Assembly (NCBI RefSeq): GCF_007994075.1
Contig: NZ_VIWU01000001.1
Span: forward strand, 2,790,001 to 2,854,000
Length of the DNA: 64,000 nucleotides
Reading direction: 5' to 3'
Origin: Pseudonocardia hierapolitana
GTDB lineage: Bacteria; Actinomycetota; Actinomycetes; Mycobacteriales; Pseudonocardiaceae
Shown: positions 10,763 through 57,518 of the stretch, piece after piece
Layout of the letters: every line of letters begins with the position of its first letter
How positions within the stretch are numbered: the stretch's first letter is position 1
The notes under the pieces: generated by a model
Told to the model about the DNA's origin: nothing
Databases searched by the model: none
What the model saw: the letters and a program-made list of their open reading frames with translations, nothing else
Position numbers and translations under genes: made by a program

Positions 10763-10836
10763 TGGCCAGGGGCGGGGTCGAACCGCCGACCTACCGCTTT
10801 TCAGGCGGTCGCTCGTACCAACTGAGCTACCTGGCC
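10763..10836 (-). tRNA. tRNA-Phe (GAA)
   Basis: A cloverleaf with acceptor arms GGCCAGG/CCTGGCC, D-arm GCTCAGTTGGTACGAGC, anticodon loop TGAAAAG (anticodon GAA) and T-arm GGCGGTTCGACCCCGCC. CCA appears to be encoded directly after the discriminator A, at 10762-10760. It is the last member of a three-tRNA operon. Confidence 0.95.
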
Positions 10837-10868
10837 GAGACCCGGTGTTTGCACACCGGGAAGTAAAG

Positions 10869-10942
10869 CGACCCAGACGGGACTCGAACCCGCGACCTTC
10901 GCCGTGACAGGGCGACGCGCTAACCAACTGCGCCACTGGGCC
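10869..10942 (-). tRNA. tRNA-Asp (GTC)
   Basis: A cloverleaf with acceptor GGCCCAG/CTGGGTC, D-loop CAGTTGGTTAG, anticodon loop CTGTCAC (anticodon GTC) and T-arm CGGGTTCGAGTCCCG. The CCA end is not encoded. It sits 32 bases from tRNA-Phe and 31 from tRNA-Glu, indicating co-transcription. Confidence 0.95.
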
Positions 10943-10973
10943 TTGCTTGTTCAGTTGTACCGCTGTCGAACAG

Positions 10974-11046
10974 TACCCCCAACGGGATTCGAACCCGCGC
11001 TGCCGCCTTGAAAGGGCGGAGTCCTAGGCCGCTAGACGATGGGGGC
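10974..11046 (-). tRNA. tRNA-Glu (TTC)
   Basis: A cloverleaf with acceptor GCCCCCA/TGGGGGT (G-U at the first pair, usual for this tRNA in actinobacteria), anticodon loop CTTTCAA (anticodon TTC) and T-arm CGGGTTCGAATCCCG. It is first in the transcribed order Glu-Asp-Phe. Confidence 0.95.
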
Positions 11047-55605: not shown

Positions 55606-55974
55606 CTACCGGCCGAAGGACGCCTTCCAGGCGCGGAACCCGCCGTCGAGGTCCGTGGCGTTGCGCAGCCCGAGATCCTGGAGGGAGGCGGCGGCGAGGC
55701 TGGAGCTGTAGCCCTCGGAGCACACGACGATCCACGTGACGTCGTGGTCCACCGCCTCCGGGATGCGGGCGTCGGAGGCCGGGTCGAGCCGCCACTCGAG
55801 GTGGTTGCGCTCGATCACCAACGCCCCCGGCAGCTCGCCCTCCTGCTCGCGCTGCCAGCCGGGCCGCGTGTCGACGAGGATCGCACCGTCCCGCACCATC
55901 TCCGCCGCGCGTTGCGGGTCCGGCCGGTCGAGCCGGGCTCGCGCCGCCGCGAGCAGGTCGTTCACGGTGGTCAT
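55606..55974 (-). CDS. Rhodanese-like sulfurtransferase
   Basis: A 122-residue single-domain rhodanese from ATG 55974, overlapping the cysteine dioxygenase stop by ATGA. VDTRPGWQREQEGELPGALVIERNHLEWRLDP is the N-terminal substrate-binding part. The catalytic Cys is in TWIVVCSEGYSSSLAAASLQDLGL, and NATDLDGGFRAWKASF follows the family ending. It moves sulfane sulfur between thiols. Pairing with cysteine dioxygenase is common in actinobacteria and points to cysteine or hydrosulfide clearance. Confidence 0.92.
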   Translation of the reverse strand: MTTVNDLLAAARARLDRPDPQRAAEMVRDGAILVDTRPGWQREQEGELPGALVIERNHLEWRLDPASDARIPEAVDHDVTWIVVCSEGYSSSLAAASLQDLGLRNATDLDGGFRAWKASFGR

Positions 55975-56459
55975 CCCACTCCCTCCGACGAACCGGGCTC
56001 CACGAGCACGCTGCGCGTCCGGCGCAACCGCGCACCCGGCTCGACGGTGTAGTACGACATCGCGGTCAGCGGAGGAGAGTACGCGTGCACCGACACCGCG
56101 GGTGTCGGCTCGGTGTTGCCGACGTCGTGCACGTGCCCGAGCGGGAATCCGAGGCTGCGCCCGGCGCTCACCCGCCGTTCACGCAGGCCGTGCCCCACCC
56201 ACCGCTGCTCGACGAGGCTGCCGGACACGACCGTGAGTGCCCCGAGCGAGCCTGCGTGGTCGTGGAGCTCGGCGGTCTGCTCGGTGGCCCAGCTGATCAG
56301 CCACACGTCCACGTAGTCGTCGGTGCGCAGCAGGCGGTACCAGCGGCGCTCCGGGTCGACCTGGACGGGATGGCGCCCTGCGCGCACCTCGGCGGCGACG
56401 TCGCGGGTCAGGGCGGTGAGATCACCGAGGGCGAGCGGGGTGGGGGCGTGCAGCAGCAC
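55971..56459 (-). CDS. Cysteine dioxygenase (cupin)
   Basis: A 162-residue cupin from GTG 56459, with TGGAG eight bases upstream. Iron-site pattern: ELHDHAGSLGALTVVSGSLVEQRW supplies two His, and the third is in FPLGHVHDVGNTEPTPAVSVHAYSPPLTAMSYYT. RWYRLLRTDDYVDVWLISWATEQTAELHDH is the bacterial CDO N-terminal block. It oxidises L-cysteine to cysteine sulfinate with O2. First protein gene of the CDO-rhodanese operon and preceded by a polycysteine small ORF, so translation may respond to cysteine. Confidence 0.9.
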   Translation of the reverse strand: MLLHAPTPLALGDLTALTRDVAAEVRAGRHPVQVDPERRWYRLLRTDDYVDVWLISWATEQTAELHDHAGSLGALTVVSGSLVEQRWVGHGLRERRVSAGRSLGFPLGHVHDVGNTEPTPAVSVHAYSPPLTAMSYYTVEPGARLRRTRSVLVEPGSSEGVG

Positions 56460-56501
56460 GGGAGTACTCCAGTGATGGCGGCTTCGAGCGGACGGGGAAG
56501 G

Positions 56502-56600
56502 TCAGCTCGCGCAACAGCACTGGTCGAAGGCGTCCGCGCGACGTGAACCCCAGATCTCTCCGAGGACTGCGGCGGGCGGCATGCGCGTATATGAACACAT
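56502..56600 (-). CDS. Polycysteine upstream ORF (candidate cysteine-responsive attenuator)
   Basis: A 32-codon ORF, ATG 56600 to TGA 56502-56504, 42 bases before the cysteine dioxygenase GTG. It begins MCSYTRMPPAAVLGEIW and ends SRRADAFDQCCCAS, so three consecutive Cys codons (TGC TGT TGC) stand two codons before the stop. Leaderless polycysteine small ORFs attenuate downstream cysteine genes in mycobacteria; this has the same design and position. Codon 7 (ATG 56582) is an alternative start with TCATAT at the right distance for leaderless initiation. CCAGTG, spanning the Gln and first Cys codons, is complementary to CACTGG overlapping the CDO ribosome binding site. Confidence 0.65.
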   Translation of the reverse strand: MCSYTRMPPAAVLGEIWGSRRADAFDQCCCAS

Positions 56601-56687
56601 CGCGCGCGGGGACTTCCAGTGCGCTCCCAGCGCGCGGGATCGGCTCCGTAATGTCCGGGCAAGCCGGCACGTGATCATTCTCGTTCG

Positions 56688-57518
56688 TCAGATGTGCGCG
56701 GCCAGCCAGTCCCGCAGGTCGCCGAGCGGGCCGTCGCGCTCGGGTTCGTTGTAGATCTCGTGCCAGAGCCCCTCGTACCAGCGGACGGTGAGGTCGGGGG
56801 ACCCGCAGGCGGCCTCCAGTCGACGGAACCCGGACGGGTCGACGATCGCGTCCAGCACGCCGTGCTGCATGAGCACGGGCAGCCGCAGGTCGCGCGCCCG
56901 CTCGGGCAGCACCTCGAACTGCCCGACGATCGCCGCGGAGAGGCCGAGGGTCGGGCGGCCGTGGTGCACCAGCGGATCGGTCCGGTACGCCGCGTACACG
57001 GCAGGGTCCTTGCTGATCTTCGAGGCGTCGATGCCGGCCGGACGGAGCATCGGCGCGACCTTCGCGACGGCCCGCAGCACGCCGACCGCAGCCCGCGGCA
57101 CCGTGCTGTTGGCGAGCGCGGGCGCGGACAGGACGAGCCCGGCGAGGTCGCCCTGGTGGTCGAGCGCGTAGGCCAGCGCGATCTGCCCGCCCATGCTGTG
57201 GCCGAGCAGGAACACGGGCAGGCCGGCGTGACGGGCGACGACCGTGCGGCGGAAGGCGTCGAGGTCGGCCAGCCAGTCGGCGTAGCGGCGCAGGTGGGCG
57301 CGCCGGCCGCCGGAGCGTCCGTGACCCCGGTGGTCCACGCCGTACACCGCCCAGCCCGCTGGGACGAGCGCATCGACCACGTTGCCGTAACGCCCCGTGT
57401 GCTCGCCGAGACCGTGGCAGAGCAGCACCACGCCGCGCGGATCGCCCGCGGGGAGCCAGCCCTGCCAGAACAGCTCCACACCACCGACGCCGGGCAGCCG
57501 GCCCTCGACGTGCACCAC
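56688..57518 (-). CDS. Monoacylglycerol lipase-like alpha/beta hydrolase
   Basis: A 276-residue protein from GTG 57518. VVLLCHGLGEHTGRYGNVVDALVPAGWAVYGVDHRGHGRSGGRRAHLRRYADWLADLDAF is the MGL-type oxyanion and lid region. Nucleophile motif FLLGHSMGGQIALAYAL, then Asp in LMQHGVLDAIVDPSG and His in YEGLWHEIYNEPER. It lacks a signal peptide. Hydrolysis of monoacylglycerols or related esters is expected. It is separated from the CDO operon and from the next upstream gene by short gaps. Confidence 0.92.
   Translation of the reverse strand: MVHVEGRLPGVGGVELFWQGWLPAGDPRGVVLLCHGLGEHTGRYGNVVDALVPAGWAVYGVDHRGHGRSGGRRAHLRRYADWLADLDAFRRTVVARHAGLPVFLLGHSMGGQIALAYALDHQGDLAGLVLSAPALANSTVPRAAVGVLRAVAKVAPMLRPAGIDASKISKDPAVYAAYRTDPLVHHGRPTLGLSAAIVGQFEVLPERARDLRLPVLMQHGVLDAIVDPSGFRRLEAACGSPDLTVRWYEGLWHEIYNEPERDGPLGDLRDWLAAHI

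Follow-up and report, generated by a model that had tools for sequence, protein, structure and literature searches.

The window analysed here is a 64,000-nt stretch of the Pseudonocardia hierapolitana genome (assembly GCF_007994075.1, contig NZ_VIWU01000001.1, positions 2,790,001 to 2,854,000). On its minus strand it carries a cysteine dioxygenase (CDO) family gene that is followed by a rhodanese-like gene and preceded by a short leader ORF (Table 1). The leader ends in FDQCCCAS, with its Cys codons reading TGC-TGT-TGC, and 42 nt separate its stop at 56502 from the CDO GTG at 56459. The original prediction described a 32-codon ORF ending in DQCCCAS at this distance from CDO. The ORF, its ending and the spacing were confirmed, but its length was not: the conserved start is the ATG at 56580–56582, which gives 26 codons. 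In 16 of the 22 distinct leaders found in the genus, the nearest in-frame start was 18 nt upstream of the conserved LG codons, and 3 further leaders had a GTG at the same spot; thus, we placed the start of the window leader at ATG 56582. The upstream ATG 56600 is not the conserved start.

A scan of 56400–56700 detected no terminator-like sites, and the hairpin plus U-tract of a classical transcription attenuator was absent. At the Rfam gathering score no cis-regulatory family was found in the window, the sole matches being three tRNAs; three consecutive tRNA genes occupy 10763–11046 on the minus strand.

Table 1. Features of the CDO leader region, in window coordinates.
Feature	Position	Strand	Basis
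Candidate -35, TGGAAG, 18 nt before the -10	56613..56618	-	Read from sequence; several relatives have TTGAxx here
Candidate -10, TCATAT, ending 6 nt before the leader ATG	56589..56594	-	Spacing versus relatives
Leader ORF, 26 codons + TGA, MPPAAVLGEIWGSRRADAFDQCCCAS	56502..56582	-	ORF listing, relatives' starts, pN/pS
CCAGTG, 5' strand of SD-sequestering helix P1 (codons Asp-Gln-Cys)	56518..56523	-	Covariation
Invariant Cys codon TGT (codon 23)	56514..56516	-	22/22 genus CDO leaders, 179/179 actinobacterial leaders
CGAGC, leader end, 5' strand of inner helix P2	56505..56509	-	Alignment, fold
GCTCG, 3' strand of P2	56485..56489	-	Alignment, fold
CACTGG, 3' strand of P1, overlapping the SD	56469..56474	-	Covariation, window fold
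Shine-Dalgarno (SD) GGAG of the CDO gene	56467..56470	-	Read from sequence; GGAG columns invariant in alignment
CDO family gene, GTG start	55971..56459	-	Pfam CDO_I, 4.8e-13
Rhodanese-like gene, 4-nt overlap with CDO stop	55606..55974	-	Pfam Rhodanese, 1.5e-13

Conservation of the leader upstream of CDO

We searched the CDO protein against 297 genomes of the host's family, of which 25 sampled genomes belong to the window's genus. A CDO match was present in 24 of these 25, and the 23 strong matches gave loci L001–L023, which were picked by CDO homology without use of any leader motif. In all 23 loci, an ORF upstream of CDO contained the core LG-x-[IL]-W-x2-RR-x3-FD-[QE]-x-C. The 24th genome (G281), whose CDO match was weak, also had the leader, with Arg replacing Trp; hence, the leader preceded CDO in every sampled genome of the genus that had a CDO match (24/24). 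A leader profile search gave no match in G181, the genus member that has no CDO match, and no such leader was found upstream of the second CDO copy of G276. Because two of the 23 loci share an identical leader, 22 distinct leaders were compared. Their pN/pS ratio was 0.38 in frame, versus 1.63 and 2.48 in the other two frames (kinship ignored), and the leader profile, which includes the window sequence itself, matched its own genome with an E-value of 1.1e-16. From this comparative evidence we concluded that the leader ORF is real and coding-like, and that it is conserved across the genus.

The Cys tract itself was variable. The longest Cys run was 1 in 10 of the 22 distinct leaders, 2 in 8, and 3 in 4; a run of Cys codons near the stop, the trait of mycobacterial attenuators, is therefore present in the window while 10 relatives have isolated Cys only. 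This rules out polycysteine as the conserved signal. The suggestion that the ORF is a polycysteine attenuator of the mycobacterial kind thus held as far as a conserved, coding-like Cys leader is concerned, but failed for the tract; likewise, of the expectation that an ORF ending in CC(C) would recur upstream of CDO in relatives, the frame was kept and the Cys run was not. What is conserved instead is W-x2-RR-x3-FD-[QE]-x-C, with one UGU Cys codon at a fixed distance.

The arrangement was also found at a greater evolutionary distance. In another family, locus L140 had CDO and rhodanese genes after such a leader, their proteins being 51% and 56% identical to those of the window. In genus g42 a leader was present in 7 of 7 loci examined, and both the LG..W and the FW..SRR types occurred among them. 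There the leader stop was 166–228 nt from the CDO match, farther than in the window, so an SD arrangement like that of the window is not apparent. Other genera have CDO genes (L084, L085, L087, L093, L096, L100) preceded by a different Cys leader, mostly LV.[FY]..CC(C), from which that of L100 diverges; in LV.[FY]..CC(C) leaders before CDO, the first Cys codon was again TGT and the last TGC.

An invariant UGU codon in a class-wide leader family

Of 394 genomes of the class, 65 were matched at E ≤ 0.01 by a profile built from 41 leaders. A DNA pattern that allowed TGC or TGT at the Cys gave at least 122 matches in at least 120 stretches. Among the matches listed, a stop followed within 12 codons in 113, of which 112 had TGT and one, in a Riflebacteria MAG and taken for chance, had TGC; 9 more had tails over 12 codons (6 TGT, 3 TGC), and the only ones of these from actinobacterial records, L208 and L219, both had TGT. 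Hosts among the matches listed included Pseudonocardia, Actinomycetospora, Mycolicibacterium, Rhodococcus, Frankia, Streptomyces, Embleya, Kitasatospora, Actinopolymorpha and Kutzneria. We refer to these leaders as family A.

We then counted codons in 180 distinct leaders gathered by peptide pattern, with a stop no more than 14 codons after the Cys; longer-tailed leaders were dropped, and the residues fixed in the pattern are conserved in this set by construction. The Cys after FD[EQ]x was encoded by TGT in 179 of the 180, the exception being the TGC of the Riflebacteria record. TGT was thus found in all 179 actinobacterial leaders collected (named records plus members of the window's class; kinship ignored), and in all 22 distinct CDO leaders of the genus, although the searches had accepted TGC as well. 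Elsewhere TGC prevailed: the window's genes had 75 TGC and 1 TGT (32 script-predicted ORFs), and the other Cys codons of the 179–180 leader peptides were TGC 70 times and TGT 25 times. Cys codons directly before the invariant Cys were TGC 22 and TGT 1, and those directly after it TGC 27 and TGT 19. Both Arg codons of the RR core varied, the first being CGC in 75 leaders, CGT in 53, CGG in 43 and CGA in 9. The rule is notable in a GC-rich group in which UGC is the normal codon.

The same codon appeared in leaders with different cores. In RRHVD[FL]-type leaders (family B), the Cys at RR+12 was TGT in 50 of the 50 that have Cys there; the counts cover these leaders only, and one leader of the set, L306, carries Cys just at +8 and +10. 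In Ms5788A-type leaders, the Cys at RR+12 was TGT in 13 of 13 and the Cys at +5 was TGC in 13 of 13.

Downstream genes were picked by script from ORFs and could be assigned for 106 of 112 leaders among the matches listed. The largest clusters among them were TauE/SafE-like (28), CDO (22), carbonic anhydrase (12), a mixed cluster (10), SsuA-like (5) and a solute-binding protein (3), followed by smaller ones. The tested member of the mixed cluster was a Cys/Met PLP enzyme and others in it resembled Fe2OG enzymes by eye; in a further cluster, of 6 among the matches listed, the tested member had no Pfam match. Family A also precedes CysC and Cons_hypoth698 genes.

The leader start has a recurrent relation to a promoter-like element. 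A -10-like hexamer ends 6–7 nt upstream of the conserved start, and in 21 of the 22 genus loci, for some of which the start was chosen by hand, the first T of a T....T hexamer lies 12 or 13 nt upstream of the leader start. Across the 179 leaders, with 422 in-frame starts, the offsets of -10-like hexamers peaked at 12 (54 cases) and 13 (25 cases), whereas the remaining offsets between 7 and 29 had 1–7 cases each; the pattern was found in 75 leaders, and 104 lack it as defined. A strict sigma-70 consensus scan of 56400–56700 gave no promoter, so that the -10 assignment is a statistical one, drawn from this spacing. Because of the spacing, the transcript is probably leaderless and starts at or very near ATG 56582.

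Proposed pairing between the leader and the Shine-Dalgarno region

The original prediction proposed that CCAGTG, in the leader's Gln/Cys codons, pairs with CACTGG over the SD, and covariation gave this proposal moderate support. In the window, helices P1 and P2 together folded into a single long hairpin that takes in the SD, and 5 of 200 shuffled sequences folded as well (z = −2.39). P1 was complete, with 6 pairs, in 15 of 22 loci and incomplete in 7; the shuffle test gave p = 0.00035 for the count of complete helices, and p = 0.010 for total pairs when partners were shuffled among the 22 loci (kinship ignored in both). Where the variable codon of P1 was Gly (GG), the partner bases were CC, CT or AC (8/8), and where it was Cys (TG), the partner was CA in 8 of 12. 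A second proposed pairing, CTTCGA with TCGAAG, was present in just 2 of the 22 distinct loci, and we dropped it as a switch.

Support from other tests was uneven. In a shuffle control of the hairpin, 88.8% of cells were paired versus 86.1% in shuffles (8 of 500 as high, kinship ignored) and the covariation was matched by 12 of 500; two of the five measures gave no support, namely pairs changed on both sides (168 of 500) and further pair types (134 of 500). RNAalifold, run on a MAFFT alignment, returned neither P1 nor P2 and gave a 4-bp local hairpin instead. We retained P1 because of its register-fixed pairing, the single-sequence folds and the covariation. The covariation gives moderate support to pairing of the SD site with leader codons next to the UGU. 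An SD-hiding structure that a stalled ribosome could open is indicated, at moderate strength, by the window fold and covariation; the alignment fold disagrees.

Similar pairing was sought before other genes. In the mostly mycobacterial TauE leaders, the third base of a Glu codon was compared with the base before the SD: GAA occurred with T in 6 of 6 cases, and GAG with C in 12 and T in 3 (Fisher p = 0.0015, for a test devised after viewing the loci; 2 of 23 loci lacked the motif). Duplexes between leader and SD region were on average stronger than shuffled ones for TauE (mean z = −1.03, n = 22, the loci with a usable start among the 28 of the cluster) and CDO (−0.86, n = 16), and weaker than in both of these for carbonic anhydrase (−0.45, n = 11). 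In a generic best-stretch test of 31 TauE-type loci, 3 reached p < 0.05 and the mean z was 0.23, hardly more than shuffles gave.

A proposed cysteine gauge and its alternatives

Besides that of CDO, five other Cys leaders were found in this genome, all before genes of sulfur acquisition or transfer. One, of family A, stands before an SsuA family protein. The RR+12 kind accounts for three, ahead of an OAH/OAS sulfhydrylase, a sulfite/nitrite reductase family protein and an alkanesulfonate-monooxygenase-like enzyme; the SsuA family protein and the sulfhydrylase score over their NCBIfam cut-offs. An Ms5788A-like leader, below the model cut-off, precedes a 3-mercaptopyruvate-sulfurtransferase-like protein. 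The products of these five genes are expected to be needed at sulfur shortage. Because the sister leaders precede such genes, the CDO-rhodanese genes may be switched on along with them, and the simplest reading of the sequence data is induction at low cysteine. It had been suggested that the logic may be inverted here, since the operon degrades cysteine; given the company of the five other leaders, inversion is unnecessary. Against low-cysteine induction, it would be odd for shortage to turn on a cysteine-consuming enzyme. The CDO-rhodanese pair would then redistribute sulfur, perhaps from a thiol as its putative substrate, and would not serve to remove a cysteine surplus.

We judged that the leader is probably a ribosome-based gauge of cysteine, in which a stall at UGU would free the SD and turn CDO-rhodanese on at low cysteine. 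RNA polymerase would start at or very near ATG 56582, and the ribosome would make the 26-residue peptide, so that on reaching the rare UGU it would hold the core W-x2-RR-x3-FD-Q in its exit tunnel. With ample Cys-tRNA it would pass UGU, terminate and leave; the mRNA would then fold P2 and P1, P1 would hide the SD, and CDO-rhodanese would be weakly translated. With scarce Cys-tRNA the ribosome would wait at UGU, covering the Asp-Gln-Cys codons, P1 would be blocked, and CDO-rhodanese would be translated. Both the stalling and its sign are inferred, and the conserved peptide core may slow the ribosome. A broader proposal, which we hold tentatively and with somewhat less than even confidence, is that a codon-specific ribosomal sensor controls actinobacterial sulfur genes, that the nascent RR-core peptide primes the ribosome, that one slow, wobble-read UGU (at RR+8 in the uncatalogued family A, at RR+12 in the catalogued family) reports on Cys-tRNA, that Cys runs are optional amplification, and that CDO-rhodanese belongs to a low-sulfur regulon.

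The core conservation invites another explanation, in which the W..RR...FD.C peptide would arrest the ribosome when cysteine or another sulfur metabolite is abundant, as TnaC does, so that the SD would open at high cysteine and the excess would be degraded. Such a sensor would suit the catabolic role of CDO and account for a core that is kept while its Arg codons change synonymously; plain attenuators usually keep less peptide conservation than the W..RR...FD core. In TnaC a Trp stands 12 residues ahead of the final one, and the window family likewise joins a conserved core to a Trp about 12 residues before its critical position. The window family differs from TnaC-type arrest peptides in its invariance at the codon level: constancy of UGU, beyond that of Cys, points to decoding, and the same core stands before SsuA family and CysC genes, which are expected to be needed at low cysteine. 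We consider this explanation unlikely.

The UGU might alternatively be kept for RNA pairing and not for decoding, in an antisequestor hairpin, CGAC/GUCG, between the Phe-Asp and the Cys-Arg codons. This hairpin was the only structure that RNAalifold returned, and 158 of 179 leaders have all 4 of its pairs, 20 have 3, and 1 has 2. TGT nevertheless persists in the 23 leaders in which something other than CGN or TGY follows it, with the inner pairs remaining, and the TGT rule of family B and of the Ms5788A-type leaders, whose sequence differs, disfavours the family-A hairpin as the sole cause. Because two sequence contexts obey the same rule, decoding is the likelier cause of UGU constancy, and pairing as its reason appears quite improbable. 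Translational coupling, by which the leader would merely feed ribosomes to CDO and sense nothing, fits the short distance from the leader stop to the SD and the CDO start; it leaves unexplained the UGU codon, the peptide core and the covariation of the SD-sequestering pairs, and we regard it as very improbable. Least credible to us is that the 26-residue peptide works in trans as a small protein: its amino acids are conserved, but its relatives lie upstream of mostly sulfur-related genes and are constrained at the level of codons and RNA.

Relation to known cysteine leaders

A cysteine gauge would be a mechanism of known kind, given earlier work on actinobacterial and mycobacterial leaders. 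In 2005, Cys leaders were predicted to precede cys operons in actinobacteria (in the available text of PMC1262725), and those upstream of cysA2, Rv0485 and nirA were described in 2015 (in that of PMC4633059). In M. smegmatis, Cys leaders act by cysteine-dependent elongation (Canestrari 2020, as cited in the available parts of PMC9031893 and PMC13236596). In the open-licence literature searched, we found neither this leader family nor the W-RR-FD core, the CDO-rhodanese target or the invariant UGU.

Three NCBIfam models of Cys leaders turned up: Ms5788A (NF042933), Ms4527A (NF042936) and the general cis_reg_atten (NF042934). The window ORF matched no family at E ≤ 10 and did not reach the 45-bit cut-off of NF042933; none of the three models matched the window leader or five relatives, for which the sole NCBIfam match was a weak one to YrbN. 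The library itself works, as two mycobacterial nirA leaders exceeded the Ms4527A cut-off; the RR+12 leaders of this genome matched that model below its cut-off.

Ms5788A-type leaderless sORFs resemble the window family in being short Cys leaders with RR ahead of the Cys codons, and the speed of the ribosome on them depends on cysteine (available text of PMC9031893). We compared 13 of them, 11 over the NCBIfam cut-off and 2 below. In most of these the core is (K/R)RRAVDLCRV, with UGU at RR+12, and the 12 mycobacterial ones have several adjacent Cys, whereas in the window family the core is W-x2-RR-x3-FD, the UGU stands at RR+8, and a leader may contain a single Cys. Leaders of the Ms4527A/cis_reg_atten kind are likewise spread through the class, where a nirA-leader profile matched 107 of 246 genomes (E ≤ 0.01), but their RRHVD[FL]-type core and spacing, with TGT at RR+12, differ from those of the window family. 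In our sample these family-B leaders had no -10 peak at 12–13 nt, and we rejected them as leaderless. The Cys leaders in acnes and of cbs in B. longum share Cys codons near the stop and the absence of a terminator; they differ in preceding biosynthetic operons, for which Rho-dependent termination was suggested, and the available text of the report does not mention CDO for them (PMC1262725).

In place of loosely defined 'polycysteine' leaders we obtain a precise rule: a conserved RR core is followed, always at the same spacing, by an invariant UGU. It picks out a leader family that has no NCBIfam model and that lies before genes of sulfur uptake, export and oxidation in many actinobacteria. The rule gives annotators a usable motif, and it makes two old questions testable: the choice of synonymous codons in attenuators, and the joint action of nascent peptide and tRNA supply.

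Several family-A loci had further features. At L062:232–428 and L063:201–394, two different family-A leaders, with the cores LEVFWVTRRQN.FD.LCP and LEPFWTGRR...FD.WCR, stand in tandem before the same ORF. In the streptomycete-like genus g71 (L144–L150, L154) the leaders are of the form LEPFWPSRQ...FDR.CC, and several precede a conserved protein of unknown function (GATWLPAPQHTLPALPGRPPM...). The region L237:7059–7835 encodes, downstream of a family-A leader, a protein that by eye resembles PIG-L/mycothiol-type deacetylases. L229 and L272 each have a family-A leader on either strand; those of L272 stand before an SsuA-like gene in one case and an adenylylsulfate kinase in the other.
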